Shown one piece after another: positions 1 through 15,028 of a DNA stretch of 64,000 nucleotides. The stretch is from positions 582,222-646,221 of the forward strand of contig NZ_PNXQ01000012.1 of NCBI RefSeq assembly GCF_005217525.1, in the 5' to 3' direction. Source of the stretch: Paenibacillus terrae. Its GTDB lineage: Bacteria > Bacillota > Bacilli > Paenibacillales > Paenibacillaceae. Within the stretch, counting starts at the first letter, position 1. Each line of letters begins with the position of its first letter. Position numbers and translations under genes: made by a program. The notes beneath the pieces were generated by a model that saw only the letters and a program-made list of their open reading frames with translations, ran no database searches and was not told the origin of the DNA.

Positions 1-60
1 TACATAATTTATTTAACTATGCATCATATGACGATTTTATGCTGAAAGGGTGGCTTATCC

Positions 61-1479
61 ATGACAATCACACCCACGATACGCGCAGAATTAGAAAAAT
101 ACCTCAGAAAAAATGGCTTAAGCAAAACTGAATTTGGACACATCGCAGGTTTGAATCCGGGTACAGTAAGCGGTATTGTGACGGGTAATAAGTCCATTTC
201 CGTTCACCAGTTGGATCGTATTACTGGAGGTATGGGTTTAGAACCAGACCATTTTCATGAACGTTACATTGAAGAGTGCATTATGGAAGAACCGCTGAAC
301 TGGAAAAGAATTAGGCCTTTTTTGTATAGATGTGTACAGTTTAATCGACTGGATTGCTTGCAGCGAGTTGTAGGCATGTTGCTAGATAATCCGGGCTATT
401 TTCCTCATCTCTTTGTAATAGCAGAGGATGCTTTCAAAAAAGGTTATAATGAAGCAGCGGCTTACCTATACGAGAACATCGCTGAGGGCGAGAAGTACCA
501 ACATTCTGATCGCTTGGCAGTCTGCCATTATCGTATATTCATAATTCAGGTTGGTGACGATCAGAATCGTAATCTCAAGGCAGCTACAAAATTTGAGGAT
601 TTTGTTGAACGCCTAGATGAAATAGATCAGCTTGACGCATTGAAGGACTTGGCGAACGTGTACAGGTCTTTGCGTCAATGGGACAAAGTTGATGAAACAG
701 CTAAAAAAATGAAGCAGAAAGCGAAAGTTCAATATTCAATGAAACATCAACAGAAGAGCCGAGAGCGTGAGGAACCTGATAAGAAGCTGAGTCGCCCCCT
801 GTTTGTGTACATCAGTTATGCCGATTTACTGCGTGCCAGTGTATGTGAAGCGCAAGGCGATTATCAACAAGCTCTACAATATACATACGCCTACGCTAAT
901 TTAGATTGGGTTAGGGAGACCGATGAGGATACCAAACACTGGATCGGTTTGTTTAAACACTGGTCACAAGCTAATATACTTGCATATAGGCTTTTATCTG
1001 GAGATGTAGGTGTGCTTCATGAATATCTAAACAGTATTGATGTATCATCTGATACAATTCAAGAAGATAGGGTCACTCAACTACTTAACATTATGACAGC
1101 AGCTAACCGCTATAAGCTAGGTGTAAATGATATACTTAAACGATTTGAAACTGAGATTGCGTCTTTCTCTCAGCGACCATCGTCTTCCGACATGTATACC
1201 CAGCAAGTAATACCAGACTACTCGGCATTATGTGGATATGAATTGGCTTATTATTATTTAAATCAAGGGATGTACGATGATGGTTTTAATCAGTTGTTTG
1301 GTGCAATGGTAAAAGCGCATATACTAAATAATGAAACATATTTTATAAATTGTATAGGTTTGTTTGTGCGCTTCAAAGTCCATGCGGTTCCCGAAACCAA
1401 AACAGAGTTTTACAATTTCATTGAAAAGGTGTGGTTACACAATGTTGAAAAAAGTGGTAATGCTGATCGTAGCGAGTAG
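61..1479 (+). CDS. AloR-like RRNPP quorum-sensing receptor (XRE HTH + TPR-like)
   Basis: The 472-residue protein begins with a Cro/C1-type helix-turn-helix (about residues 8-60) followed by about 400 residues of helical, TPR-like sequence. This is the layout of RRNPP peptide receptors (Rap, PlcR, AimR and the AimR-like Alo receptors of Paenibacillus). An ATG after an AAAGGG ribosome site sets the start. Its last 38 bases overlap a 40-codon signal-peptide-bearing gene, the usual arrangement for a receptor and its cognate propeptide. Such receptors bind the re-imported mature peptide and change their DNA or protein binding. Carriage on an integrated element suggests control of element behaviour or host sporulation, which is inference. 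Assignment to Alo rather than another RRNPP branch rests on genus and the peptide motif. Confidence 0.8.
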   Translation: MTITPTIRAELEKYLRKNGLSKTEFGHIAGLNPGTVSGIVTGNKSISVHQLDRITGGMGLEPDHFHERYIEECIMEEPLNWKRIRPFLYRCVQFNRLDCLQRVVGMLLDNPGYFPHLFVIAEDAFKKGYNEAAAYLYENIAEGEKYQHSDRLAVCHYRIFIIQVGDDQNRNLKAATKFEDFVERLDEIDQLDALKDLANVYRSLRQWDKVDETAKKMKQKAKVQYSMKHQQKSREREEPDKKLSRPLFVYISYADLLRASVCEAQGDYQQALQYTYAYANLDWVRETDEDTKHWIGLFKHWSQANILAYRLLSGDVGVLHEYLNSIDVSSDTIQEDRVTQLLNIMTAANRYKLGVNDILKRFETEIASFSQRPSSSDMYTQQVIPDYSALCGYELAYYYLNQGMYDDGFNQLFGAMVKAHILNNETYFINCIGLFVRFKVHAVPETKTEFYNFIEKVWLHNVEKSGNADRSE

Positions 1480-1564
1480 TTTTTTGTTTACCTTAATAAT
1501 GCCCATTCATCTGGACAGTCATAATGAGATATTTCAAACTTTTGCAACACATGGAGGAGCTTAA
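1442..1564 (+). CDS. AloP-like secreted signalling propeptide
   Basis: This is a 40-codon gene starting at an ATG inside the 3' end of the receptor gene. It has a basic N-terminus (MLKKVV), a hydrophobic segment ending near residue 21 and a polar tail ending ATHGGA. That is the form of Phr, AimP and AloP pre-propeptides, in which Sec export is followed by cleavage to release a C-terminal oligopeptide of about six residues. From memory, characterised Alo peptides carry a Ser-His-Gly type core, which the C-terminal Thr-His-Gly resembles. A GGTG-type ribosome site lies 10-15 bases upstream. The 38-base overlap suggests translational coupling to the receptor. The mature peptide is predicted, not shown. 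Confidence 0.78.
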   Translation: MLKKVVMLIVASSFLFTLIMPIHLDSHNEIFQTFATHGGA

Positions 1565-1721
1565 ACGTGACTCAAAATTTATATGAAAAAGGTTTTTAAT
1601 TACTACACTCCTAAAAAGGGTCTAGTTACGAAACAACAGGTCACCACGGGGGAATTTAATCTTTCATAATATGGATCAATGGGAAACAAGGCAGAACACT
1701 AAATCATATAAAATTTAAGAG

Positions 1722-1757
1722 AAGGTTAGATGGGATTGTCCGTCTAGCCTTTTTGAT
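1722..1757 (+). terminator. Rho-independent terminator after aloR-aloP
   Basis: A stem formed by AAGGTTAGATGG and CCGTCTAGCCTT (with G-U pairs) is followed by a T run. It lies about 160 bases after the propeptide stop and would end the signalling transcript. Confidence 0.75.
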
Positions 1758-1761
1758 TTGC

Positions 1762-1980
1762 ATGGAGTTAGAGAGGATTTATGGGATTGAACATGGAGGA
1801 GATAGGGGAAATCAGTATGTATCAAAAGAGGCAGACCAAAATAATTTTGGTCAGCAAAAAACACAAGCCGATATTGCACAAGAGTTAAACATAACAACTC
1901 AGCAACTTAGAAATTACAAAAAACTCCTGACACTTATTCCTGAATTACAGGATATGGTTGAGGAGCAGGATGTGTTTTGA
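1762..1980 (+). pseudogene. ParB-like DNA-binding protein fragment
   Basis: The 72-codon frame contains a YGIEHGGDR motif and then KTQADIAQELNI followed by LIPELQDMVE. These match the middle (KorB/HTH) part of ParB/Spo0J-like proteins found on phages and plasmids. Full-length relatives have an N-terminal ParB domain and a longer C-terminus, both missing here, and no good ribosome site is seen. It is therefore probably a remnant of a partition or regulatory gene. It could be expressed as a small DNA-binding protein, but nothing in the sequence favours that. Confidence 0.55.
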
Positions 1981-2276
1981 ACTTGTTTGCATAATTAACA
2001 CACCTGAATAAAGGGGGATGTGATTTGCATACACCTTGCTTCAATATCCACCGTGACAAATTGTTGTGCTTGGGTAGGTGATCAAAGCGCCCGATAAAAT
2101 GGCGAAATGTCCATCTGAAAGACATTGCAGAATCTATTGGCGAAAATGAATAGAGTAGGATCAATTAGACTGAAATAATAGCGGATCAAATTTATTTCTT
2201 CATTATAAGTATCTCTGGTTGTACTTGCTGGTAAAACGTAAGTTTCCTCCAATATCTTTTTTTTGAAAAATATTCG
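1981..2276 (+). other. Non-coding stretch with decayed coding remnants
   Basis: No convincing gene is visible. One short frame around 2110-2155 reads HLKDIAESIGENE, reminiscent of a helix-turn-helix start, but it lacks a start codon and a ribosome site, so it looks like gene debris continuing from the ParB-like fragment. Confidence 0.35.
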
Positions 2277-2305
2277 TTGACAGTATCGTAGGACAGTGTT
2301 ATATT
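2277..2305 (+). promoter_or_regulatory. Sigma-A promoter for the replication-gene transcript
   Basis: TTGACA at 2277-2282 and TATATT at 2300-2305 are separated by exactly 17 bases, a near-consensus vegetative promoter. It lies about 490 bases before the primase-like gene, so the transcript has a long leader holding a mini-ORF, a boxA-like motif and a hairpin. Confidence 0.72.
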
Positions 2306-2366
2306 ATGAATACACCATTTGAACGTAGCGAATTCAGTTGGAATCACAAAGAAATGGAGATACAAA

Positions 2367-2393
2367 ATGAAGCGAAAAGTATTGCGAAGGTAA
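2367..2393 (+). CDS. Possible 8-codon leader peptide MKRKVLRR
   Basis: An ATG lies 7 bases after a GGAG ribosome site, about 55 bases downstream of the predicted transcription start. The peptide is five-eighths basic and three of its codons are rare arginine codons (CGA, CGA, AGG). Its place between a strong promoter and a hairpin suggests a leader peptide for translation-linked attenuation. It may also be chance. Confidence 0.3.
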   Translation: MKRKVLRR

Positions 2394-2596
2394 AACGGAA
2401 TCGAAGAGTGTGAAAGTTAAGTAGTTGACAATACATATTGCATTACCACGAATACAATTAACACAGCAGATTTAAAACACAGTAAGTAGATGAGATGAAT
2501 ACTAGATTAGATAGTCGAAATAAAATTATTTTTAGGATTGGCAAACTTAATATTGTTTTATTTGTTCTGTCAAATTGGATAGTTAAGTTTATTTGT

Positions 2597-2625
2597 TGTG
2601 CGATCTTTGAAAACTGAAAAACAAC
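2597..2625 (+). promoter_or_regulatory. boxA-like antitermination motif
   Basis: GCGATCTTTGAAAACTGAA closely resembles the boxA-containing motif of Bacillus-group rRNA leaders and spacers, where Nus factors assemble. No rRNA gene is near. Here it precedes a terminator-like hairpin and the replication gene, so it may make transcription processive through the leader. The function is inferred from similarity only. Confidence 0.45.
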
Positions 2626-2669
2626 GGGAGTGGTTTATATTTCTGCGGAGATAACGGTCATTCATTCGC

Positions 2670-2706
2670 TAAAATATTCATTTATCTTTGAATGAAGATA
2701 TTTTTT
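2670..2706 (+). terminator. Terminator-like hairpin in the replication-gene leader
   Basis: AATATTCATT pairs with AATGAAGATATT (two-base bulge) and is followed by TTTTTT. It sits about 85 bases before the primase-like gene and downstream of the boxA-like motif, a placement expected for an attenuator. Confidence 0.5.
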
Positions 2707-2782
2707 GTTGAGTGCTGTGACTTATTTAGCTTGAAATATATTTGAATGAATAGATAATAACATATAAAACGAAGGGAGTAGT

Positions 2783-2803
2783 ATGTACTTTTGGCTTTTG
2801 TAG
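2783..2803 (+). CDS. Possible 6-codon upstream ORF overlapping the primase start
   Basis: An ATG 4 bases after AAGGGAG (2772-2778) reads MYFWLL and stops inside the first codons of the primase frame. Ribosomes ending here could reinitiate at the TTG at 2791. It is too short to rule out chance. Confidence 0.25.
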   Translation: MYFWLL

Positions 2804-5139
2804 AGACGCGAGATTTTATTCAAGTTACTGCTAACAACGGTAAGACTAATTTTTCATACATATTTGAAGGTAATGAAGACGAACGCTTATTTAATAGTAA
2901 GATTCATAAAAGTAAAATGAAATACTACATCAAAGAAGCTGTCAATGAATTTGAGGAATGGAATAAAAAGGGCTATGGAATTTATTTTTTGCCTAATGGT
3001 GGCGGTTACAAAAATGATGAGATAACAGAATTTCGTGCGTGTTTTATCGACATGGATATCAAGGATGAGATTGAACATGAATTTGTTGCTGCTGGATTTA
3101 CTGGAACCCCCAATGAATTACATGAGCTTGTAAAATCTAAGTTTTATTCGCTGAATAATACCGAGCAACTTAACTATAAACAGATATTCAGGTGTCGTGT
3201 TTCAGAATTAAAAAAACGCGGGATTCCTTCAAGCGCTATTGTAGAGACAAAGAACGGGTTCCATGTGTATTATTTACTCAATAACGACACACAGAGACAC
3301 CAATTTGAAACGCTAGAAGGATTTTTGATTTACATATTTAATGCAGATATGGCTGTGAAGAATCCAGCCCGATTACTACGAGTACCAGATACTATACACC
3401 TGAAAGATTCAAATGACCCATTTACAATAAAACTTGAGGAATGGAATCGAAGTATTCGGTATGATTCAGAAGATTTGATAGTTCGTCTTAGGAAAGTTGT
3501 TGAGAAGGTACATGCTCAAAAAGATTCGTTGTTATGCGTCAATTCACGTAAAGCGCCAACACATAATACTAAGCTACTGTCCAAAAAGAATGGTCTTCCC
3601 CTCAGAGTAGGAATAGATTATTCTTCAATGACTATCGGGAATATTCCTCTAATCAGTAAAGGGTTCGAAGGACTTTCAGAGCTAAAGAGAAGGCTAGGAT
3701 TAGACAATCAAGACGATCTGTGCTATATAGACCGGGATGATATCAGACAATTCTTGAAGAAACAAAATTTAAAGCAATTGCTTGGGGTGGAGGCTGACAG
3801 GTTTTATTGCATATTCCATAACAGTACCAATTCTACCAGTGGAAATATATACCCTTTTGATGATAAATGGTTTTATAAGTGCCATAGTTCACGGTGTGGT
3901 GTTCATTACGATATTGTTCAGACTATAGAGAGAATAACAAGGCTTCCTATACATAAAGCATTCGATTATTTAAAAGAACTCTACAATATAGCTGAGATTA
4001 AAACAGATTGGCAATTAGACCAAGAAAGGCTCATTGAGTTCAACATTGAGTTTCTGGAACGTTTTAAATATGATGTGGATTTACAAGAGAACTATCCATA
4101 TCTAACGAAGTTTCTGAAAACTAAAGGTACGTTAGGATTGCTGATACAAATACATGAAGTTGCAAGGAGGAAGCTTCCCCAACTCGCTAAAATGAGAAAT
4201 ATGGATTCAAGCAATGCTATTGTGTTTGCACCTATGAGGAAGGTCATAGAGGAGTTATTGAGCGAAAATTCTGATATACGTAACATTAATAAGGCCAATA
4301 CAAAAGTAGTGATCATGATATTTATGTATCTGCTTAATTGTGTTGGAATTGATCAATTACCTGATGAAATGCAGAGGAGAATTGAACAGTATCAAAAGGA
4401 GTCTCGTAAGAATAGTAATATCCATTACAATAATATAGCGAGATATTATGAAATAGTCAGCATGGATACTGAACGGCTTATACTGGCTGAAGAGATGAGC
4501 AAATTCTTTTATCAGAATCATCTAACAATTTTAAACTTTAATCGTGAACAGTTGATCAGCTTGTGTGGAGTAGAAGAGGGCAATCGTGTCTTCCCTGATC
4601 GCTCAGATGAAGAAATACCGGGCTTAAACCAATCCATCTCACAGGAGATTAAACGAGTAGTAAATAAGCTAATTCAGGTCAAGGGATGGACATATGACCA
4701 TGAAGTTATTGAGAATATAGATATCTCAGATTTCGATATGAAGCAACGATACAAAGACAGCTTCAAGTACATACCTAAAAAGAAGTCAGTTGAATTGGAT
4801 TCATTAACTGTACTGGATAATGATGTAGGATTTCAGAAGTGGCGTTATGGGTTTCTGGCTAAAAAACTAGCTATGAACATACCAGCAATTATTTCTAATC
4901 AGGAGTACCGTAAGGCAAGAGTAAATAAGCTATTGAGAAAGCAGTTTGACATTCCTATACATATTAAAGGTTTCGTTTATCATCAAGAAATTTCAGAACA
5001 AGGGATACAATTAGAAGACAAGGCTTCACATATCCTACGATTAAAGCAACATGATTTAAGTCTATCTAATGCTAAGATAGCTTCAATAGTTGGATGTTCA
5101 AGACAATATGTATCTAATATTCTTAAATGCAGAGATTAA
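2791..5139 (+). CDS. Primase-like replication protein (AEP-type with zinc finger and HTH)
   Basis: In the 782-residue protein, FIDMD near residue 92 and VETKNGFHVYYL near residue 150 match the metal-binding Asp-x-Asp and nucleotide-binding His motifs of archaeo-eukaryotic-type primase-polymerases of plasmids and phages. An ARLLRVPDT motif follows. A CHC2-like zinc motif lies around residues 345-375 (YCIFH then KCHSSRC). The last 40 residues form a helix-turn-helix (LSNAKIASIVGCSRQYVSNIL). No helicase P-loop was seen. It probably primes or initiates replication of the element. The start is a TTG 12 bases after AAGGGAG. An ATG 8 bases upstream opens a 6-codon overlapping frame, so start selection may be coupled. 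Confidence 0.7.
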   Translation: MAFVETRDFIQVTANNGKTNFSYIFEGNEDERLFNSKIHKSKMKYYIKEAVNEFEEWNKKGYGIYFLPNGGGYKNDEITEFRACFIDMDIKDEIEHEFVAAGFTGTPNELHELVKSKFYSLNNTEQLNYKQIFRCRVSELKKRGIPSSAIVETKNGFHVYYLLNNDTQRHQFETLEGFLIYIFNADMAVKNPARLLRVPDTIHLKDSNDPFTIKLEEWNRSIRYDSEDLIVRLRKVVEKVHAQKDSLLCVNSRKAPTHNTKLLSKKNGLPLRVGIDYSSMTIGNIPLISKGFEGLSELKRRLGLDNQDDLCYIDRDDIRQFLKKQNLKQLLGVEADRFYCIFHNSTNSTSGNIYPFDDKWFYKCHSSRCGVHYDIVQTIERITRLPIHKAFDYLKELYNIAEIKTDWQLDQERLIEFNIEFLERFKYDVDLQENYPYLTKFLKTKGTLGLLIQIHEVARRKLPQLAKMRNMDSSNAIVFAPMRKVIEELLSENSDIRNINKANTKVVIMIFMYLLNCVGIDQLPDEMQRRIEQYQKESRKNSNIHYNNIARYYEIVSMDTERLILAEEMSKFFYQNHLTILNFNREQLISLCGVEEGNRVFPDRSDEEIPGLNQSISQEIKRVVNKLIQVKGWTYDHEVIENIDISDFDMKQRYKDSFKYIPKKKSVELDSLTVLDNDVGFQKWRYGFLAKKLAMNIPAIISNQEYRKARVNKLLRKQFDIPIHIKGFVYHQEISEQGIQLEDKASHILRLKQHDLSLSNAKIASIVGCSRQYVSNILKCRD

Positions 5140-5169
5140 ACTTTATATTGATAATCTGATTATAAAAGT

Positions 5170-5260
5170 GTCAACTAAATGGTCATCTTTAAGCACCTCA
5201 TATCATTAGACTAAAGAGTAGTAACATTATGAGGTGCTTTAATAGGCATATTTAGTTGAC
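5170..5260. repeat. Nested inverted repeat between replication and cargo genes
   Basis: Outer 11-base arms (GTCAACTAAAT at 5170-5180 and its complement at 5250-5260) enclose inner 12-base arms (AAGCACCTCATA at 5191-5202 and its complement at 5228-5239). Both gaps between inner and outer arms are 10 bases and the loop is 25 bases. There is no T run, so it is not an ordinary terminator. Its position right after the primase gene makes an origin, a single-strand initiation site or a protein-bound regulatory site plausible. Confidence 0.7.
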
Positions 5261-5547
5261 AGGTGGATAACAGAATAAACAAAGTATTGGTCAAAAGTGG
5301 ATTATTATTGGCTTGTCTTCAGTACATCCTTTTTCTGAATAATCTATTAGGAAATTAAGATGTTTCTTCATAGACAAGGTATTTGTAAGGGGAAGGACAA
5401 TAACTGTTATTCATAGATAATAGTACAGAGATTAGAGTGTCAGAATGGATATGAAAGGGGTGATGTGGATTGAGCTAGTGTTGGATTGTCTTCACATGAA
5501 GTAAGGCAGATTTATATAAAATAATACATATAAAAAGGAGCGATTAA
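5261..5547. other. Intergenic stretch before the cargo cluster
   Basis: No gene is recognised. It contains several short ribosome-site-like purine tracts (AAGGGGAAGG near 5387, AAAGGGGTG near 5455) followed only by very short frames, and it ends with the AAAAGGAG ribosome site of the next gene. Confidence 0.4.
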
Positions 5548-5880
5548 ATGAATAGTACAATAAATATCCCTGCTAAAATGCAGGTCGATGCAGGTGTAAT
5601 GTACGAAAAATTCTTGAAAACTATTGAAAGAACAGAAGGGATTATGCAAAAGGCTGACTTTTCTATTAACAATGAATTGCAAATGCTACGCAACAAAGGG
5701 AAACAAGTGGCAGAAAGCATGACCGTTCAATTGAAGAAGATGACTAAAGGATCAATTGATTTAAATTTGACTCTAAGCGACTTGGAGAATTTCACAGAAG
5801 TTTTTGATAATTATATTGATGAACAAGAAAAGCTCATAGATGATTACTTAGATTTAATGAATAAATTTTGTAGAAAATAA
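5548..5880 (+). CDS. Small helical protein of unknown function
   Basis: This 110-residue protein starts 8 bases after AAAAAGGAG. It is acidic-basic mixed, almost entirely helical in character with heptad-like leucine and isoleucine spacing, and has no signal peptide, membrane segment or recognised motif. It opens a same-strand cluster running to 10368, separated from the next gene by 55 bases. A structural or coiled-coil adaptor role would fit, but I do not recognise the family. Confidence 0.75.
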   Translation: MNSTINIPAKMQVDAGVMYEKFLKTIERTEGIMQKADFSINNELQMLRNKGKQVAESMTVQLKKMTKGSIDLNLTLSDLENFTEVFDNYIDEQEKLIDDYLDLMNKFCRK

Positions 5881-5935
5881 TTCGATAATCTGAGAAGTAC
5901 AGGCAAGTAATATATACATAAGGGAGAAATATTAA

Positions 5936-6742
5936 ATGAACAAAAATTTTGAAATCAAAAAACAATTCAACAAGCTTGATGACTGTATGATGCAGATGAT
6001 ATGTGCTTTTGAGGATTTAAAGGCAGATCGAAAGTTCACAGTGTCTCAATCTGGTTTAATCAGAACATCCAAGGAAGCCGTAGAATTAATGACAGATGTA
6101 TCTTATAGGATACCAAGAATAAAAACAACAAGCGCCATCATTTATCTGAACAACATGGTCAACAAAGTTGATCAATATGAAAGAATTTTTAAAAAGGCTT
6201 CAAATGAAGCTAAACGTATTTGTACATATATTCGTGATAATTTGGATGAAGTAACCAAACAGGTTAAGAATGATTTTGAAAATAAGAAGGCCATGATGCT
6301 TGATATTGATTCCAGTTTAAAGGAAGCTTTTGAGAAGAATTATCCTAGCCTACAACACTATATAATCTTTTTCGATATGCACCCTCTTACGAAAGACGAA
6401 TTCCTTGGATTGTTTTCCTTCAATCGGGATAAAGATAGGGACGATTGGAGCAGATTGAACTATAAAGGAACGATTGAAGCAATTGAGGATTTGCCAGATG
6501 TAATTGATGGAAGTGCATTCTTAGATTTTGCTGCTACAGATAGTGTTTTATTGAATGACAGTGCTGTATCGGGATACCTCATGCATGAATGTATTAAATT
6601 GATGAAGCAACAGGGCTTTGACGTTCTGGATATGGTTCAGGATATTGTTGGACAGCCGCTACCATCATTCACAAGTACAGTGGATGAGCTTGGGAATATC
6701 ACAGACATGAAATTGAATAAGCCAAATTTGAAGTTAGTGTAA
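5936..6742 (+). CDS. Element protein of unknown function, 268 residues
   Basis: An ATG 8 bases after AAGGGAG sets the start. Residues 1-135 look like a long helical bundle. The C-terminal half is mixed and acidic (DKDRDDWSRLNY, IEAIEDLPDVIDG) and ends in a polar tail. There is no signal peptide or membrane segment. With the preceding 110-residue gene it forms a pair of helical proteins, suggesting a complex. I do not recognise the family. Confidence 0.75.
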   Translation: MNKNFEIKKQFNKLDDCMMQMICAFEDLKADRKFTVSQSGLIRTSKEAVELMTDVSYRIPRIKTTSAIIYLNNMVNKVDQYERIFKKASNEAKRICTYIRDNLDEVTKQVKNDFENKKAMMLDIDSSLKEAFEKNYPSLQHYIIFFDMHPLTKDEFLGLFSFNRDKDRDDWSRLNYKGTIEAIEDLPDVIDGSAFLDFAATDSVLLNDSAVSGYLMHECIKLMKQQGFDVLDMVQDIVGQPLPSFTSTVDELGNITDMKLNKPNLKLV

Positions 6743-6875
6743 ATATTTGCAGAATGATTATGTGGGGAGGTGAATCCGATGTAACATTAAATTGAGTTGG
6801 CCTGTCGGATTAGTTGATGAGTTGGTAAAAGTGGAGTGAATGTAAAAAAACTCAAATCAGAGAGGATAAAATGAA
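6743..6875 (+). other. Short gap with start-stop mini-ORFs
   Basis: A very strong ribosome site (GGGGAGGTG, 6764-6772) is followed 6 bases later by ATG TAA at 6779-6784, a start codon directly followed by a stop. A second mini-frame, ATG AAA TGA at 6871-6879, overlaps the start codon of the next gene. Such sites can hold ribosomes or couple translation, but they may be leftovers of decayed genes. Confidence 0.4.
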
Positions 6876-7112
6876 ATGAAATTAGGGGTACTTTTCAATT
6901 TTAAAGATGGAGAGAAATACAAGGCTAATGGCAGTTTTAATTACAACAACACTCAAGCAGAGCAGGATAAATTGTTGGAATGGATAAGTGGCTTTTCAAT
7001 GGGAATGGAAAATAACTCAGAAATTGATGTCATGCTGGATGATGAGCAGGTAACGAAACGATATTCTAACCTATATTCCGTGGAATTTATTGTAGAAAGT
7101 GAGGTACATTAA
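6876..7112 (+). CDS. Small protein of unknown function, 78 residues
   Basis: The start ATG follows AGAGG by about 10 bases and overlaps a 2-codon frame. The product is acidic with alternating hydrophobic patterns at both ends, suggesting a small alpha/beta fold. Its stop is one base before the likely TTG start of the next gene, so the two are probably co-translated. The family is not recognised. Confidence 0.65.
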   Translation: MKLGVLFNFKDGEKYKANGSFNYNNTQAEQDKLLEWISGFSMGMENNSEIDVMLDDEQVTKRYSNLYSVEFIVESEVH

Positions 7113-7113
7113 A

Positions 7114-7560
7114 TTGAAGATTCAGAATCAGCAGCTTGAATGGCTGGTGCAATTTTGCTTGAAATTTGAAATGAATGCTAAGGGCAGTCGTCAGCGTTCT
7201 AAGTTTATTAAAATCCTTCAGGATAAGGTAGAAGACTATCGGAATCATCGACAGGAGTTAATTGAACTGTACGCTTCAAAGGATGAGAATGGGAACCCGT
7301 TAATAATTCTTGATAATGGAGAGCGTTGTTATGATGTGGAAGATAAGAACGGCTATATGAAAGAATTTATAGAGTTACAATTGGAATATAATTACATAAA
7401 TCAGACAGAAGAAAATATTAAGATGCTAAAAATAGTAGGAGACGCTTATCTAAACCATGAGGACATGTTCTTGGGTATTGAGGGCGATTTTTATCACTAT
7501 ATTTGCATAGAGTTCGAGGAATTTTTCGAGAAGCAAGGTAAGGAAATTAGCAGCAAGTAG
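7114..7560 (+). CDS. Unknown element protein, 148 residues
   Basis: The TTG at 7114 is preferred because GTGAGG lies 8 bases upstream and the previous gene stops at 7112. A GTG at 7099 in the same frame would overlap that gene. The protein is helical and acidic, rich in Glu, Gln and Tyr, without a signal peptide or membrane segment. It belongs to the same transcription unit as its neighbours. The function cannot be inferred. Confidence 0.65.
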   Translation: MKIQNQQLEWLVQFCLKFEMNAKGSRQRSKFIKILQDKVEDYRNHRQELIELYASKDENGNPLIILDNGERCYDVEDKNGYMKEFIELQLEYNYINQTEENIKMLKIVGDAYLNHEDMFLGIEGDFYHYICIEFEEFFEKQGKEISSK

Positions 7561-7604
7561 AATATACCAGTAAATTAATACATAACAAAGGTGGATAAAA
7601 TAAT

Positions 7605-8627
7605 ATGAGTTTATGTGTAGCAGCTTCATTTGAAAGAGAGCATTATTTGGCGGTTGATACGGCAGTATCATTTCATAAAAATGGTCTTGTTTATCGTAAC
7701 GTAGATGGATTTTCGGAGAAGATAAAAATTATTGACGGAGAAGCGTATTTTTTCAGTGGAGACGTTGAATTGTGTTTGATGCTTCAAGTTAATTTTATGG
7801 AGCAGAAGGACAGGAACTTTGCTAAGTTAACTGAGATAGCAAAAGATTTGTTTGATAAGTATGCTGATCCCGGCGATAAATTGGCCTTCTCTAAATATGG
7901 ATTTGATAAAGATGGGAAGGCAACTATGGAGTTCAATAATAGTGAGTTAGGCTTTAAACCTCAGCCAATATATTATGGGAGTTCGAATATTCAGTTTACT
8001 ACCTATGGATCAAAAATGAGACAAGCTGGAAGTCATATTGATCTAAAAACCACATATATTACTCCTGATTTCTTCATTCCTATTTACGAAGCTGTAGCAG
8101 ATGAAGGTATCGGAAGATCAATCTACATGTATCATATTAAGTTCGATGAACACGGACGGACAGAAGAAATTCCTATTGCTGACCCTGTATATATTCGTAA
8201 GGCAAGTATGAAAAAGGTTAGAAATCATTCAACATTCGTTGGTGAAGGTGAGGACGCTTTTCCCGTAACAATTATGGGTGAAGGTGATGGAGCAAAGAAA
8301 TTCGACTCATCCAATGCATTCGACCCAGCAATGATTGGTGAGCCAATGAGTAGCAAAGGATTTCTGGTCAAGCCCAAGGGAAGTTACAGTATGATGTACT
8401 TCTCCTCCAACACTGGTTTTGAAAGGAGCATTACGCTAAACGATCAAGATATCACTATATTCGCTGATAAGGGGGCTATAACGTTAAAAGGAAAATCCTT
8501 TAATTTTATAACTCAAGGAGGGTCATTATTCGAAATGGCAGAGAATGGAGATATTAATTTTAAAACTAAAGGTAAAATTAGCTTTAACGGTACTCGATTC
8601 GACTTTAACACCCCTGACACACATTAG
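7605..8627 (+). CDS. Ntn-hydrolase-like protein with beta-rich C-terminus
   Basis: In the 340-residue protein the first 60 residues (CVAASFEREHYLAVDTAVS, then SEKIKIIDGEAYFFSG) recall the opening beta-strands of proteasome-subunit/HslV-type Ntn hydrolases: a nucleophile-like Cys4, a conserved Asp (residue 18) and a later Lys-containing strand before a Gly-rich turn. The last 80 residues show short repeating beta units (ITIFADKGAITLKG, INFKTKGKISFNG) like solenoid stalks or phage spike domains. It starts after GGTGG with 11-base spacing. If catalytic, the chain must be trimmed to expose Cys4 or Ser2. It could instead be a structural protein. Both readings are inference. Confidence 0.5.
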   Translation: MSLCVAASFEREHYLAVDTAVSFHKNGLVYRNVDGFSEKIKIIDGEAYFFSGDVELCLMLQVNFMEQKDRNFAKLTEIAKDLFDKYADPGDKLAFSKYGFDKDGKATMEFNNSELGFKPQPIYYGSSNIQFTTYGSKMRQAGSHIDLKTTYITPDFFIPIYEAVADEGIGRSIYMYHIKFDEHGRTEEIPIADPVYIRKASMKKVRNHSTFVGEGEDAFPVTIMGEGDGAKKFDSSNAFDPAMIGEPMSSKGFLVKPKGSYSMMYFSSNTGFERSITLNDQDITIFADKGAITLKGKSFNFITQGGSLFEMAENGDINFKTKGKISFNGTRFDFNTPDTH

Positions 8628-8709
8628 TTTATATTCCCCACTCTCCTATCCGATATATATTGTAAGTGTATGTAAATCATATACTAATCGAATAATTGGA
8701 GGATATACA

Positions 8710-9450
8710 ATGAAAAAGCGGATTCCAACGTTCCTTGCTGGTGCAATAGTCGGTGCAGCGGTAGTATTAAGTAGCGTAGCAGGTGCAAGTACATACTTAA
8801 AAGCAACATTAACTCCAAACACTAAAATTGTGGTTAACGGAGAGCAAGCCACGCTAAGTGATAGTCCCATAAATCTGAACGGCAAAGCCTATCTCCCTCT
8901 TAGAGATACAGCAAGTGCAATGGGTTTTAAAGTAGCAAGTGCAAGCAGTGGGAAAATTGAGTTGGTGAAAAGTAATGGAACGGTGTCTACTCCCTCCTCT
9001 ACCCCATCGACTGCAACAAGTACAAAAAGTGAGCCAGTAACAACAGCGGTTAAGCAAGGAGGTAAAACTTTTAACGTGGATCAATACACAAAAGGAGATA
9101 AGCTGGACTCAGAGAAGATTGCAGCAGCCATTGCTAGTGGTGAGTTGACGATTAATTCACAGGATGCAAACGGTGATAGTATTCTGCATTGGGTAATACG
9201 CAAGGATGACTACGCAACTTGGTTGATTATTAAGAAGAACGGATTGAACGTGAATATTTTAAATAATAAGAAGCAATCTCCATTACATGAGGCAGCTTTA
9301 CAAAATAGTAACTTTTATATTGGAGAACTGGAATCACTTCATGCCAATCCTAAATTGATGGATATTGAAGGAAAGAAACCAATTGAATATATCCGTTTAA
9401 ATTCTTCGAATTATATCTCTTTAGAGGTTTATATGATGAAAACAGATTGA
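8710..9450 (+). CDS. Secreted protein: copper amine oxidase-type N-domain plus ankyrin repeats
   Basis: The start ATG lies 7 bases after TTGGAGG and is chosen because it begins a clear signal peptide (MKKR then a hydrophobic stretch to about residue 28). Residues 35-80 match the copper-amine-oxidase N-terminal domain common on Paenibacillus surface proteins (IVVNGEQ, YLPLRDTASAMG). A Ser/Thr/Pro-rich linker follows at about 90-115, and then two or three ankyrin-like repeats (DANGDSILHWVIRKDD, NNKKQSPLHEAAL). It is exported, so it acts at the surface or outside, unlike the rest of the cluster. The target is unknown. An adhesion, immunity or toxin-neutralising role is possible. Confidence 0.7.
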   Translation: MKKRIPTFLAGAIVGAAVVLSSVAGASTYLKATLTPNTKIVVNGEQATLSDSPINLNGKAYLPLRDTASAMGFKVASASSGKIELVKSNGTVSTPSSTPSTATSTKSEPVTTAVKQGGKTFNVDQYTKGDKLDSEKIAAAIASGELTINSQDANGDSILHWVIRKDDYATWLIIKKNGLNVNILNNKKQSPLHEAALQNSNFYIGELESLHANPKLMDIEGKKPIEYIRLNSSNYISLEVYMMKTD

Positions 9451-9455
9451 ATTGA

Positions 9456-9490
9456 TTTGAGCGTCCATTGTTATTGGGCGCTCTACCCTT
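9456..9490 (+). terminator. Hairpin after the secreted ankyrin gene
   Basis: GAGCGTCC and GGGCGCTC form a stem with a 9-base loop, followed by a weak pyrimidine run. It may be a partial terminator within the cluster. Confidence 0.5.
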
Positions 9491-9546
9491 CTCCTATTTG
9501 AAGAGAACAGCAAATAAAACCAACATTTTACATGGAGGCAGATAAT

Positions 9547-10368
9547 TTGAGTAAAAAATTAGGAAGACCATTTAAAGTTAAGCCAGAGGTTATTGATAAG
9601 TGGATTCAAAAATATGGAGATCATAATTATGTGGATTATAAAATTAGGGCAATTAATTTCACTGAAAAGTTAATATCTAAAAAAGTTGTGAAATATGAAC
9701 ATGAATATGCAGCCTACCTTTTACATTGCAGCCTCTATTGCCGAATTGTTAATTGTCGCCACGGTGCTGGTATATATAAGGGTGTACATTGTGACTGGAA
9801 ATCAGCAGATGAGGCATTCTTACAAGTACTTGAACAGAGAAAAGATTTTTGGGAGGACTGGGTGCGAGTTACAACAGATTTTGTGAAGAATGGTCAGCAC
9901 AGATCAGATAGACCAACAGTGGATCGAATTCTTGAAGATGGTGGAATAGGGTATACGATTACCAATATTCAGGTGTTAACTTCAGGAGAGAATAGTTCCA
10001 AGGCAAAGCGTATTCCCCACTACTTGATAAAAGTGTATGACTCGCATAACCCAAAAGAATCAAAGACCTTTAAAAAGTATGCATCGAAGTCAGAGGCGTT
10101 AGCAGCAATTGGGTTAACACAAACAGAATCAGACTGTGGGAATTATTTTGAAATTGAGGGTTGTGCCTATCTCTTGCAATCTGAGGCACTTACGCATGGG
10201 GAGAAGGAATTGATTCAGAAAGAAGAAGACGACGATAAAGAGAAGACATATAGAGGATCAATTTTAATAGCAACAATAGAACTTGGTGATGGACGTACTG
10301 CAACAATAAGCAAAGAATTTACATATACCCAGTCAGCGGTAATATTCAAGGAACCTATAGCAGATTAA
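9547..10368 (+). CDS. HNH-endonuclease-like protein
   Basis: The TTG at 9547 is preferred because GGAGG lies 8 bases upstream. An in-frame ATG at 9532 would place that ribosome site inside the gene. Residues 118-140 (RPTVDRILEDGG, GYTITNIQVLT) match the core of phage-type HNH proteins, where the usual form is a DRID motif, a Lys-Gly-Tyr turn and an Asn-Ile/Val-x-Val strand. A canonical HNH histidine-asparagine pair is not obvious, so catalysis is uncertain. The C-terminal 100 residues form a charged region and a beta-rich tail. It may be a DNA-binding or nicking protein of the element. Confidence 0.55.
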   Translation: MSKKLGRPFKVKPEVIDKWIQKYGDHNYVDYKIRAINFTEKLISKKVVKYEHEYAAYLLHCSLYCRIVNCRHGAGIYKGVHCDWKSADEAFLQVLEQRKDFWEDWVRVTTDFVKNGQHRSDRPTVDRILEDGGIGYTITNIQVLTSGENSSKAKRIPHYLIKVYDSHNPKESKTFKKYASKSEALAAIGLTQTESDCGNYFEIEGCAYLLQSEALTHGEKELIQKEEDDDKEKTYRGSILIATIELGDGRTATISKEFTYTQSAVIFKEPIAD

Positions 10369-10444
10369 TATACATAGAAGTGAAGATTTTTAGATATCTT
10401 GTCATAAAATTAGCGCAAATAGCTTAACGGATTAAGTAAATTCC

Positions 10445-10472
10445 AAGCGCCTACTTTAGGCGTTTTTCTTTT
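10445..10472 (+). terminator. Rho-independent terminator of the cargo cluster
   Basis: CGCCTA and TAGGCG form a perfect stem around a 3-base loop, extended by A-T pairs, followed by TTTTTCTTTT. It lies 80 bases after the HNH-like gene. Confidence 0.85.
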
Positions 10473-10560
10473 CAATTTTTCACGCTATTTTCAACTCGAA
10501 ATATCCCACAAAAAATCGTCAATAAAAAGTCATAAGTCATCCAATTTTTCCCGTTGCATA

Positions 10561-10590
10561 TTGTACGTGTTACGTGACACGTGATACAAT
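10561..10590 (+). promoter_or_regulatory. Promoter with iterated operator for the toxin-antitoxin pair
   Basis: TTGTAC (10561-10566) and TACAAT (10585-10590) are 18 bases apart. The spacer is filled by three tandem near-copies of a 7-mer (ACGTGTT, ACGTGAC, ACGTGAT) that also form an imperfect palindrome. A repeat array between the -35 and -10 boxes fits autoregulation by the antitoxin or another DNA-binding protein. Nothing else is seen in 10600-10736. Confidence 0.6.
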
Positions 10591-10736
10591 GGTAATACGT
10601 TCTAAGAAACATTCTACGATATAGAGATAGCCCACAACAAACGAAGAACGTCTCGTAGACACATTACACAGTATAAGTTGCACTTTTGGGTGACATACTT
10701 TTAAGAAAAAAAGTATTACCTGTGGAGGTGTCTAAA

Positions 10737-10934
10737 ATGTGTGAGGAGGATAAGGATATGAGCATTGTACTAAATAATACACGAGCAAAATTAAACATTT
10801 TGAAAGCCAAAGCAAAACAAATAAAAAACGATCCTCATTTACGTCATCAGCCAAATAAAGAACAAATTGAGCGGTACAATGAAATTTGTGGCGATTTTGA
10901 AGAACATCAAATGCAAATTATAATTGAAAAGTGA
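10737..10934 (+). CDS. Putative antitoxin partner of the MazF-like toxin
   Basis: The 65-residue frame starts 8 bases after GGAGG. A second ATG at 10758, itself 7 bases after AGGAGGA, would give 58 residues, so either may be used. The protein is basic and helical in its first half and acidic after residue 40, without a MazE, ParD or ribbon-helix-helix motif that I can recognise. It ends 12 bases before the toxin gene. Its role is inferred only from that position and size. Confidence 0.5.
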   Translation: MCEEDKDMSIVLNNTRAKLNILKAKAKQIKNDPHLRHQPNKEQIERYNEICGDFEEHQMQIIIEK

Positions 10935-10946
10935 GTGGGATATTGA

Positions 10947-11315
10947 GTGGAATTATTTCGGGGTGATATTTATCATATTAAATTCCCATACACATTTGAT
11001 TCACGCTATCCAGACGGGAAAAATAAATTTGTTTTAGTGTTGCAATCTGGAGAATATTTTGAGAAATACAATACAGTAAGTATTCTTTTGATAACTTCCG
11101 ACGATTCTGAAAAAAATTATGAAACAACTGTTACCATCAAACAAGGAACTACAAGACTAAGGAAAGAGTCATATGTTGTATGTGCTCAACCTTATACTGT
11201 GAAAAAGTCATTGTTTGATGGTAATGGGTATCGTGGAAGATTAGATTCATCCGTTTTAGATGAAGTAGATGAAAAGTTGTACATAGGTCTTTGTATGGAT
11301 AGTCAAAATGAATAG
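10947..11315 (+). CDS. PemK/MazF-family endoribonuclease toxin
   Basis: The 122-residue protein starts at GTG. RGDIYHIKFPY at the N-terminus is the family's opening strand, KNKFVLVLQ is the second, and a later ILLITSDDSEK strand and RKESYVVCAQPYTVKKS block hold the conserved basic and Ser/Thr positions. The length is typical (about 110-120). Such toxins cut mRNA and are neutralised by a small upstream-encoded antitoxin, here the 65-residue product. The pair probably stabilises the integrated element. Confidence 0.75.
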   Translation: MELFRGDIYHIKFPYTFDSRYPDGKNKFVLVLQSGEYFEKYNTVSILLITSDDSEKNYETTVTIKQGTTRLRKESYVVCAQPYTVKKSLFDGNGYRGRLDSSVLDEVDEKLYIGLCMDSQNE

Positions 11316-11347
11316 TTAAAAGTACTTAGGTCACTTCTGAAACGTTG

Positions 11348-11382
11348 AGAGTCAATCCAATTATGGGTTGGCTCTTTTTTTG
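11348..11382 (+). terminator. Terminator after the toxin gene
   Basis: AGAGTCAATCC pairs with GGGTTGGCTCT (G-U pairs included) and is followed by seven T residues. Confidence 0.85.
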
Positions 11383-11516
11383 TAGGACAAAAGTATTAAT
11401 GACTTTAATAGAGAAAAAGAATTTTATTTAACTCATTGAAATTACTGATTTTTTTATATTAATATGATAACCTTTATATAGATTTTGCATTGTTTATACA
11501 TGGAGGTTATAACGTA

Positions 11517-13172
11517 ATGGTTAATTTCACTAACAATAAATGTACCATCTATTGCCGTGTTAGTTCAGACCGAGATGAACAAGCCAATTCGATTAATAAT
11601 CAAACATCAGGCTTAATTGATTATGCTGAACAAAACAATATGATCATTGCTGATTCAGGGGTATTCTGTCGTCGAAATCAAGAAAGCGAACCATTTAGAG
11701 GGTATATAGATGAAGGATTTTCAGGCGCTCAATCTGCTAAATATCGTAGAGCATTTCAACAGATGATATTTGACTCAAAAATGGGTTTGTTTAAAACTAT
11801 TCTTACCAAATCTGTTGCTCGTTTTGGACGGAATGTGAAGGATATGCTAATTACAATTGATGAGTTGGAGAAACAAGGTGTGGGGGTCTGGTTCGAAGAT
11901 ATTAAGGCATACTCTCTAAATGGTGCTGATAAAATTAGGATTCAGTTATTTGCTACATTAGCTGAAGAAGAAAGCAGAGCTAAAAGTGATAGCATTCAAT
12001 GGGCAAAAAAACAGGCTGCACGAAAAGGAATATGGGCAGGGCGTGAACCTTACGGATATAATATTGAAAAAGGTAAGTTAGTGGTTGATGAGTATGAAAA
12101 AAATATTGTGATCATGATTTTTGATTTGTATCTAAAAAAAGGGTACGGAGTAAGTAAAATTGCTAAAGTTTTAGAGGCAGAACTCAAAGTTCCCGGTAAA
12201 CGAGGAGGAAGATGGACAGGAAGCCATGTTGCTGGAATTCTCCAAAACAGTGTTTATACTGGGCATACAACTTTGCATAGAACACGAAAATCTAATATTA
12301 ATTTGGGATTAATTGAAAAAATACCTGAAAGTGATCAAATAAAGCTTGACGATGAATCGCTAAGAATCATAACAGATGAGACATTTGAATTAGCTGAAAT
12401 TGAGAGAAACAAGAGACCGAAAATGAAAGATTGTGAGAAAGGTATTGACACTAGATACTCTAATGCACACTTATTTTCCAATCTAATATATTGCTCCAAT
12501 TGTGGAGGTAGCATGAGGAAAAAGGTTCAAAAGACCACCCGTACTACACATCATTATTATTATTGTCGCAATCATGAAATATACGGCAACGATATTTGTA
12601 AATATCGAAATCTTCAGCGAGAAGAAGATCTTCTAGAATGGGTAAAAGAAGAATTTAGAACATTCATTGCTGATACAGATGATCATGAATTTAACTTCAA
12701 TTTGTTACTTGAAACTAAATATGAATCAGAGGATTTTGATACCCTTATCAAAGAAGCAAAAACAAAATTACTAGAAGTTGAAAATGAGAAAGAGGTTAAT
12801 TTTAGACTTCTATCAAAACAGATTATTGATGACGAAGATTTTGGAGCACGGAACACTGCAATCAAACTAGAAATCGAGAAATTAAAAAGTGAGATTAACA
12901 GATACTCAAACATCAATAAGGAAATTGAATTGTTCCATACTGAGTATAAGAACTTTATCAAGAGTTTAAGTGAAATTAATCTGGATAATTTAGATAACAT
13001 GACTTTGAGGAAATTCATTAGCGGTATAAGCATTGCTACAATGTGGATTCCCGGTGAAGGCGATGAAGAGCAGACAATTAGATCAATACATTGGAGATTC
13101 ATGGAGTGGGATCAGCTAGATATTATTAATGACCATGTTAAAAAGTTTGTTTTGGATAAGCAGCCTAAATAG
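11517..13172 (+). CDS. Large serine recombinase (element integrase)
   Basis: The ATG at 11517 follows GGAGG by 10 bases and gives 551 residues. The resolvase domain (about residues 8-165) shows YCRVSSDRDEQ with the catalytic Ser16, YIDEGFSG and ARFGRNVKDML. A recombinase domain follows (about 170-280), then a zinc ribbon near 325-370 (YCSNCGGSM then YYCRNHEIYGNDIC) and a C-terminal coiled coil. The catalytic domain has extra residues between the second helix and YIDEGFSG (an SGVFCRRNQESEPF stretch). The enzyme would join attP to attB by a two-base staggered cut. The right junction in cpaF lies about 660 bases downstream, as expected for an integrase near its att site. Confidence 0.92.
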   Translation: MVNFTNNKCTIYCRVSSDRDEQANSINNQTSGLIDYAEQNNMIIADSGVFCRRNQESEPFRGYIDEGFSGAQSAKYRRAFQQMIFDSKMGLFKTILTKSVARFGRNVKDMLITIDELEKQGVGVWFEDIKAYSLNGADKIRIQLFATLAEEESRAKSDSIQWAKKQAARKGIWAGREPYGYNIEKGKLVVDEYEKNIVIMIFDLYLKKGYGVSKIAKVLEAELKVPGKRGGRWTGSHVAGILQNSVYTGHTTLHRTRKSNINLGLIEKIPESDQIKLDDESLRIITDETFELAEIERNKRPKMKDCEKGIDTRYSNAHLFSNLIYCSNCGGSMRKKVQKTTRTTHHYYYCRNHEIYGNDICKYRNLQREEDLLEWVKEEFRTFIADTDDHEFNFNLLLETKYESEDFDTLIKEAKTKLLEVENEKEVNFRLLSKQIIDDEDFGARNTAIKLEIEKLKSEINRYSNINKEIELFHTEYKNFIKSLSEINLDNLDNMTLRKFISGISIATMWIPGEGDEEQTIRSIHWRFMEWDQLDIINDHVKKFVLDKQPK

Positions 13173-13208
13173 CTGCAATCAAAGGCAGTGAAACCAATTG
13201 GATACTAT

Positions 13209-13253
13209 AAGAGAGAAGCCGCTTATTTAATTATTTCTAAGGGCTTCTCTCTT
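13209..13253. terminator. Bidirectional terminator between integrase and the convergent gene
   Basis: AAGAGAGAAGCC (13209-13220) pairs perfectly with GGCTTCTCTCTT (13242-13253), with T-rich sequence on the plus-strand side. It can end both convergent transcripts. Confidence 0.8.
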
Positions 13254-13257
13254 TATT

Positions 13258-13662
13258 TTAATGGTTTGTAAGTTCTATTCTTTGTGTCAAAGTTTCCTGA
13301 TTTTTTAATTTAAGATACTCGTCTTTATCATAACTTGCGCCAAGTTCTTTAGATTGCTCTAAGAGTGAAAGGGAATCCACTATAGCTATGTTTTTTCTAT
13401 AGAAATAAAATTTCCTGAATTCACTGTGATTGAAGCTATCATTAAGCTCGATACCTACGATGTCACTAACAACAAAAGTCTTTATCTCTCCTCCTATCTC
13501 CAAAACAAGTAAAAGACAGTCACCTGATATAGTATCAAAAACTTGATATTCTAAAATCTTTCCTTTCACTTCTCCATATACATTTTCTGGGTACGGACTA
13601 AGTTTAGCATGAGAAAATTGCTGAAGAGATTGGATCACTGAATTGATGTTTGCATTAGACAT
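13258..13662 (-). CDS. Unknown protein next to attR, convergent to the integrase
   Basis: The 134-residue product starts after GGAGG (spacing about 6). The centre is a beta-rich region (KGKILEYQVFDTISGDCLLLVLEIGG written across two strands), flanked by helical ends. There is no signal peptide and no recognised motif. It is the last gene of the element and the only minus-strand gene on it. That position is where recombination directionality factors or immunity genes are sometimes found, but there is no sequence support for either. Confidence 0.65.
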   Translation of the reverse strand: MSNANINSVIQSLQQFSHAKLSPYPENVYGEVKGKILEYQVFDTISGDCLLLVLEIGGEIKTFVVSDIVGIELNDSFNHSEFRKFYFYRKNIAIVDSLSLLEQSKELGASYDKDEYLKLKNQETLTQRIELTNH

Positions 13663-13826
13663 GTTGAACCTCCGTTGTTAGATTAAATTATTCCTATATT
13701 ATATTCTGTACTATTATTTCACTTCCCTTCTTTTGCACCATATAAATTTGGGTCATTAGGTAGTTTTTTAATTATGGAATAGGCCTTAATGTACGTTGAA
13801 CAGTTTAGATATAATATTACCTTTTA

Positions 13827-13845
13827 ATAGATTTCTTACAAGCAA
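13827..13845 (+). other. Right attachment junction (attR) inside cpaF
   Basis: Immediately right of this point the frame reads LQAMNTGHDGS, an invariant CpaF block. Immediately left, AT-rich non-coding element sequence begins. In-frame reading extends only to 13815 before a stop. The partial match IDFLQAMN to the usual LDMLQAMN suggests that a few bases of core homology are shared by attP and attB. Confidence 0.7.
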
Positions 13846-14234
13846 TGAATACAGGACATGATGGGTCGTTATCGACGGGGCATGCGAATAATATCCGTGA
13901 TATGGTCAGCAGATTGGAAACGATGGTACTGGGAGGGGCTGATCTTCCGCTTGATGTGGTACGGCAACAGATCAGCTCGGCCATTGATATATTCGTGCAT
14001 CTGTCACGATTGCGTGACAAATCCAGACGGGTGCTGGAAATTAGCGAGGTAACTGGCTTTGAAAATGGTGAAGTGATACTCAATCCGCTCTATCGGTTTC
14101 AGGAGCGGGGTGAAAGTAAAGGACGCATCGTCGGAGGGCTGGAGCGTTGCGGTGAAGGTCTGCAGCATACGTTGAAGCTTCAAATGGCCGGAATGAAGCC
14201 GGAAAGCTGGAGCAGGGGGGAAGCTTCGGTATGA
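13836..14234 (+). pseudogene. cpaF: cpaF/tadA 3' fragment (Tad pilus ATPase, split by the element)
   Basis: The 132 codons encode the C-terminal end of a CpaF/TadA-type secretion ATPase. NTGHDGSLSTGHANN is the conserved histidine box after Walker B, PLDVVRQQISSAIDIFVHLSRLRD is the following helix, and RRVLEISEV is a conserved strand. CpaF proteins are about 400-500 residues, and everything upstream, including Walker A, is missing. There is no usable ribosome site at the internal ATG (13845), so the fragment is not expected to be functional unless the element excises. It overlaps tadB by four bases (ATGA), showing that the original operon continued directly. Confidence 0.9.
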
Positions 14235-15028
14235 AGCCAGGAAAAGCGGCTGTGAAGCCGGAGCAAGCATCCCGTCAGGCTACTTCCCTGCCAGACTACA
14301 CGGTATATACATTGTCACCTGTGCAAAAAAGCCTGTGTATCCTCATTAGTGGCGTGCTATTCGCAATGATCGGCTATCTTTTTTATCATCAATGGATATT
14401 GTCGTTGCTGTGCGCTGCTGGAGCTTTGGTGACGCCTCGTTATTTTCGGCAGTTTTTGCTGCAACGGCGCAGGTCGGCTCTAGGCATCCAATTCAAGCAG
14501 GCTTTATATTCGCTCTCGTCTTCCCTTTCCGCGGGAAGGTCGGTGGAGAACGGCTTTCGTGAGGCGGTGGAGGATTTGAGGCTGCTTAGCCCGGATGGAG
14601 ATCATGATCTGATTTTTGAATTTAACATTATTACAGCCTATCTGGAAATTGGACAACCCGTGGAGACGGCTCTGCAGGATTTTGCTCATCGGGCGCAGAT
14701 GGAGGATATTACGAATTTTGCGGACGTGTTTGCAGCTTGCAAACGAACCGGGGGTGATCTGGTGGAGGTCGTACGACGGGCTTCAAGTGTTATAGGGGAG
14801 AAGCTGGAAATTCAGCAAGAGATCGGTGTGATGATCGCGCAGAAACGTTTTGAATCGAGAGTTATGTTTGCGGCGCCTTTTTTGTTTGTACTGTTTATGA
14901 CCATGACTGCGGGAGATTACATGATGCCGTTATACAGCGGGACAGGTATGATTTTGTCTACCTTTTGCCTATTGGTGCTTGGTGGCTGCCTCGTATGGAT
15001 TAACCACATTATGAAAATTGAGGTGTAA
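14231..15028 (+). CDS. tadB: TadB-like type II secretion F-domain membrane protein
   Basis: The 265-residue protein has two hydrophobic segments near residues 33-75 and two near 210-262 that flank a cytoplasmic F domain (FKQALYSLSSSLSAGRSVENGF and ACKRTGGDLVEV are typical). It is an inner-membrane platform protein that works with the CpaF ATPase to assemble Flp pili. The start overlaps the cpaF stop, so translation was normally coupled to the gene now interrupted. Its expression may therefore be reduced in the integrated state. Confidence 0.85.
   Translation: MKPGKAAVKPEQASRQATSLPDYTVYTLSPVQKSLCILISGVLFAMIGYLFYHQWILSLLCAAGALVTPRYFRQFLLQRRRSALGIQFKQALYSLSSSLSAGRSVENGFREAVEDLRLLSPDGDHDLIFEFNIITAYLEIGQPVETALQDFAHRAQMEDITNFADVFAACKRTGGDLVEVVRRASSVIGEKLEIQQEIGVMIAQKRFESRVMFAAPFLFVLFMTMTAGDYMMPLYSGTGMILSTFCLLVLGGCLVWINHIMKIEV

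Follow-up and report, generated by a model that had tools for sequence, protein, structure and literature searches.

The DNA analyzed here, a stretch of 64,000 nucleotides from Paenibacillus terrae (the window), carries at its left end a gene pair, receptor plus propeptide, that belongs to the Alo (AloR-AloP) family published for Paenibacillaceae. Judged from the alignments, the receptor is a mosaic of two lineages, and relatives of the pair often sit directly before genes for WXG100-domain toxins. Both observations are new here, and no published description of receptor mosaics or of the Alo-toxin link was found in a search of the open-licence literature. The pair is probably an Alo switch on a tadA island, with a mosaic receptor and with its WXG100 toxin cassette missing. 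The features of the window are collected in Table 1.

Table 1. Features of the receptor-propeptide locus and the surrounding element (window positions).
Feature	Position	Strand	Basis
aloR-like receptor, 472 aa	61..1479	+	ATG start; homology, sub-cut-off HTH/TPR models
N-terminal (HTH) part of receptor gene, P. terrae L039-like lineage	61..550	+	95-99% DNA identity to L039
Receptor middle stretch, mostly nearest own-genome paralogue L002	551..900	+	76-89% DNA identity
C-terminal receptor part and propeptide, ATHGGA lineage	901..1564	+	79-98% DNA identity to G033, G041, L116
aloP-like propeptide, 40 aa, C-terminus ATHGGA	1442..1564	+	ATG start; MLKKVVMLIVASSFLFTLIMPIHLDSHNEIFQTFATHGGA
Probable terminator of the pair: 16-bp hairpin, then T-rich DNA	1719..1754	+	whole 196-nt stretch z -2.6
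75-aa ORF; same stretch lies between Alo pair and toxin in relatives	1753..1980	+	ORF list, comparison
Place where relatives have ~1.7-1.8 kb more with WXG100-domain ORF	1967..2032	.	P. brasilensis L035, G038, G072 (L119)
Promoter-like site, 11/12 consensus bases	2277..2305	+	pattern scan
782-aa ORF, possible replication protein	2791..5139	+	weak primase/helicase similarity
268-aa ORF common to other islands	5936..6742	+	sequence comparison
MazF/PemK-like protein, next to recombinase	10947..11315	+	Pfam match
Large serine recombinase, 560 aa, next to the element's right end	11490..13172	+	Resolvase, Recombinase, zinc-ribbon domains, all over cut-off
Right crossover dinucleotide CA (attR)	13839..13840	.	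left partner at contig C12:570343
tadA C-terminal half, as ORF	13845..14234	+	T2SSE match

An earlier note on this DNA had described a 472-residue HTH-TPR receptor overlapping by 38 bases a 40-codon propeptide ending ATHGGA, and the ORF coordinates confirm this to the base, with the overlap at 1442-1479. As for the HTH-TPR fold of RRNPP receptors, the window receptor matches HTH_3 (E 4e-4) and TPR models of Pfam, every one below its cut-off, and its comparison with solved structures returned HTH-type and chance matches only. The propeptide is a short ORF directly 3' of the receptor, with a hydrophobic N-terminus by a simple hydrophobicity score. The hairpin behind the pair was missing from the output of a pattern scan. 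A stretch of 10 N in the assembly lies directly left of window base 1 (L028:19991-20000), and homology to the relative G041 is continuous across it.

Membership in the Alo family rests on homology and on the recurring arrangement of the two genes. Aligned over 99% of its length, the receptor is 54% identical to a plasmid-borne receptor, other than AloR13 itself, from the strain that defined Alo, P. polymyxa ATCC 842 (PMC7425212). In its own genome, 26 places match the receptor at E<=0.01, 16 of them long and with at least 30% identity (one with an in-frame stop, one without the first 68 residues). Propeptides were looked for at 21 of the 26 places, and several hydrophobic ones were found in place, with ends such as VGGA, IGGA, VGGM, GHHGGL, and HGAGG. 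Of 60 genomes of the genus, 51 have matches at E<=1e-30; matches were also found in 34 plasmid records, 2 IMG/VR contigs and, distantly, 2 Brevibacillus phages. The numbers within the genome and across the genus indicate that the pair is more than a chance arrangement. Among 41 different receptors of at least 50% identity, the propeptide lies at exactly -38 in 24, and 6 have no accepted propeptide; the window's own was scored at -59 in this count, as the script chose an upstream TTG, its ATG being at -38. ATHGGA ends the propeptide of 6 of the 41, namely the window's own and those of G033, G014, G041, P. terrae L033, and a P. peoriae plasmid. On the two IMG/VR contigs L041 (3300-3572) and L042 (2266-2538), tandem propeptides stand behind one receptor of another type, the second ending in ATHGGA. 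The Alo-like receptor of the Brevibacillus phage SecTim467 is distant (26% identical, hhalign 100%); it is overlapped by a 45-aa ORF, as in the window pair, and this ORF has no Alo motif at its end. In that phage (L123:2679-4502), Spo0E lies upstream of the receptor and its overlapping ORF.

The layout had been called arbitrium or Alo in the earlier note. The Alo part stands, on the AloR homology and the propeptide, whereas the AimR part does not: in the HMM comparison that the note had proposed, the receptor scores 18.4 bits with the AimR equivalog model, whose cut-off is 70, and membership in AimR was rejected. A comparison with SPbeta AimR by hhalign gave a probability of 0.6%, a weak test with a thin alignment (Neff 1.9). 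The arbitrium AimR-AimP genes of SPbeta (NC_001884) likewise lie together on an integrated element, but the window receptor has no detectable similarity to SPbeta AimR and stays far below the cut-off of its model.

The closest described system is Alo13 of P. polymyxa ATCC 842, in which an HTH-TPR receptor is likewise followed by a short propeptide whose C-terminus is a hexapeptide (SHGRGG in Alo13, ATHGGA in the window), and many copies per genome are common to both sets (PMC7425212). Secretion was described for the Alo propeptides, and SHGRGG shuts off a promoter driven by AloR13 (PMC7425212). Unlike Alo13, the window pair lies inside a tadA element and has a mosaic receptor, and its relatives have downstream WXG100-domain toxins. 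By analogy with Alo13, the pair could regulate host genes, either sporulation via Spo0E or other Alo loci, the element being a mere carrier. Expression of spo0E and of other aloP genes drops in response to the AloP13 peptide (PMC7425212), and Spo0E is found near Alo-like receptors on plasmids and in one phage; however, no spo0E adjoins the window pair among the ORFs scanned, which included part of the small ORFs, and we consider this explanation unlikely.

DNA identities of the receptor gene were calculated in 100-base windows against six compared sequences. Window bases 1-550 are 95-99% identical to P. terrae L039, an island receptor whose propeptide ends in GQHGGM. From 901 to 1550, propeptide included, identity to L039 drops to 43-62%, and the receptors with ATHGGA from G033, G041, and the P. 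peoriae plasmid reach 79-98%. A break test, on a trio picked after viewing the sliding windows, placed the change near 591, with L039 agreeing at 170 of 175 discriminating sites to the left and 47 of 336 to the right (0 of 500 permutations). In the protein, identity over residues 1-170 is 96% with L039 and 56-58% with the ATHGGA receptors; over residues 281-460 it is 37% and 87-88%, respectively. The L039 island also contains the 782-aa ORF of the window in an 89% identical form, so that the HTH half fits the island and the sensing half an outside lineage.

Across 52 of 67 receptors, the other 15 having been dropped for lack of an accepted propeptide, identity of the last 8 pheromone residues tracks that of the C-terminal receptor half more closely (partial r 0.70) than that of the N-terminal one (0.23); both values exceed all 999 permutations. 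In a distant AloR group (L060-L074; 20 receptors), residues 1-210 share 93-97% identity and the remainder 39-66% (94 of 185 pairs, those with an N-terminal half at least 90% identical). Fourfold sites in this group differ in both halves (0.48 and 0.61), pointing to a long-constrained half and a diversifying one rather than to recent copying. The aloR leader is common to receptors with differing HTH parts (L119, L002) and is therefore not a mark of the target.

The claim that the pair is carried by an integrated element interrupting a Tad-pilus gene was borne out, with a CA core at both junctions and an empty site in another genome of the species. The element measures 25,717 bp, from C12:570343 on the contig to window position 13839, half of it lying left of the window, and most of the evidence for it comes from beyond positions 61-1564. 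It splits tadA into an N-half from C12:569485 and a C-half; the two T2SSE matches over cut-off in the own genome are these halves, and a third is below cut-off. Genome G007 of the same species has the exact 52-bp empty site, and tadA rejoined across the element is an open frame that agrees with G007 tadA in 415 of 418 letters, stop included. Of 30 bases in the inner arms, 21 are symmetric, a score reached at 6 of 50,000 random places. A half-site resembling an attachment-site arm lies at 11446-11475, directly upstream of the recombinase gene, where self-regulation is possible. Shortened tadA genes are found in 5 of 60 genomes (own, G041, G045, G057, and G038). The elements of G045 and G057 have the same CA core, with arms symmetric at 19/30 and 17/30; G041 shares the left tadA junction, and the interruption in G038 falls some 30 bases beyond this site. 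Elements have inserted into tadA repeatedly, at two sites separated by about 30 bases; the CA core flanks three of them on both sides, and of a fourth only the left junction survives.

SPbeta integrates by a large serine recombinase, and the skin element, like SPbeta in spsM, splits a host gene. The window element resembles these in splitting a host gene that a serine recombinase could rejoin; unlike theirs, its target is tadA. A full phage was rejected, as no terminase, portal, or capsid match was found with PHROGs among 20 element ORFs (of about 35 of at least 60 aa), which gave a weak minor-tail match only. A 216-aa ORF left of the window was discarded as an element marker, having 5 copies in the own genome. 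The MazF/PemK-like gene is preceded by an 82-aa ORF without Pfam match, and genes of similar size occur in G045 and G057. No known RNA family reached the gathering threshold in L001, L028, L098, and L091, and window positions 1-14300 gave chance-like matches only.

The position of the pair raises the arbitrium-like explanation that it senses the number of element-carrying cells and controls excision or replication, and hence tadA integrity. The pair lies inside the element, a possible replication gene follows it, and joining the flanks restores an uninterrupted tadA frame. The gene for a tyrosine recombinase stops about 0.8 kb before the pair; of 23 AloR loci examined, own included, 8 have a tyrosine recombinase or resolvase no more than 0.8 kb upstream (7 on the same strand, 1 opposite), the 23 loci having been picked partly for island genes. 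However, no AloR match was found in the same-site elements of G045 and G057, so the pair is dispensable for elements of this kind, and similar pairs occur on plasmids without such context. Nor did a shared operator stand out when the regions near 2277 and 11490, where the earlier note had suggested looking for the receptor's binding site, were searched for motifs: nothing convincing was found there, and the shared 14-mers upstream of the recombinases (8 vs 2.3 and 6 vs 1.7 in shuffles) stay within about 2.3 sd in AT-rich DNA. Promoter-like sites numbered 7, with 10.5 expected in shuffles. Density control of excision, replication, or adhesion through the pilus is possible, and we regard the arbitrium-like explanation as a whole as improbable.

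The association of related Alo switches with WXG100-domain toxin genes was examined in 9 genomes, where 61 WXG100 matches were found, 32 of them with an open frame of at least 230 aa. With 150 of 165 AloR matches listed, 11 of the 32 long ORFs have an AloR at most 7.5 kb upstream on the same strand, compared with 0.30 expected and at most 3 in 2000 random draws, the limits of 7.5 kb and 230 aa having been chosen after examples were seen. Among the AloR matches listed, 7 of these 11 have one at most 800 bases away, and 2 of the 29 short WXG100 ORFs have an AloR within the 7.5 kb. The paralogue L002 of the own genome, 68% identical, precedes one of the 11. The toxins examined carry WXG100, and that of L114 has a CdiA-CT-like RNase domain and a CdiI-like neighbor. 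The N-terminal WXG100 domain is shared with the WXG100/LXG polymorphic toxins (PMC8321402, PMC10765036), none of which is encoded at the window locus itself. About 90 bases of strongly similar DNA precede LXG-type genes in 6 loci (L002, L035, L102, L098, L040, and L117); as a conserved promoter this stretch was set aside, no test linking it to AloR.

At the window locus, no toxin is present where three relatives (L035, G038, G072) have one. Around 1967/1978, the flanking DNA on either side lines up with that of P. brasilensis L035, which carries 1.8 kb with the toxin at this point; the WXG100-domain match of L119 (G072) is 115 aa. The head module of pair, hairpin, and 75-aa ORF is conserved. 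Loss here and gain in the relatives appear equally compatible with this comparison. The pair might be a relic, functionless after toxin loss: the toxin is missing from its usual place, and G041 keeps the pair, with ATHGGA, on a tadA-element remnant without the tadA C-half. Yet both ORFs are intact and the ATHGGA signal was kept while the DNA diverged, which makes a relic distinctly unlikely. Most likely, the pair came as the head of an island toxin cassette, is now without the toxin, and is a transcription switch. Against this reading stand the lack of an operator in the motif searches, the absence of the toxin here, and a loose linkage to island genes: AloR matches were absent near the 268-aa ORF in G065 (20 kb examined) and near distant relatives of the 782-aa ORF in G048, G056, and G057 (20 kb each; 40 kb in G057).

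Peptide processing, DNA target, direction of regulation, and present function of such a switch are what we infer, with export, re-import, and binding modeled on Alo13 (PMC7425212). AloP would be exported and trimmed to a C-terminal peptide of about ATHGGA, which would be taken up again and recognized by the TPR-containing C-terminal half of AloR; binding would alter transcription driven by the HTH half. Recombination would have joined the island-lineage DNA-binding half to a pheromone-sensing half and the accompanying propeptide gene, so that the same targets would now answer another signal. As the toxin cassette is missing, the switch would act only on remaining island promoters or on other loci.

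Alo systems are known as the most numerous peptide signals of a single genome, and to our knowledge outputs have been described for very few of them. We tentatively propose, at somewhat less than even confidence, that Alo loci are modular, the DNA-binding half staying with its targets while the sensing half and propeptide are exchanged or diversify together, which would rewire the signals to the outputs, and that many pairs head WXG100 cassettes of mobile islands, where lineage-specific peptides would gate contact killing. If the toxin link is true, many Alo systems would switch interbacterial killing according to cell density. The mosaic receptor is a natural domain swap, making rewiring by exchange of a sensing half and its signal gene directly testable, and the tadA element adds a case in which mobile DNA may turn a pilus gene off and on.
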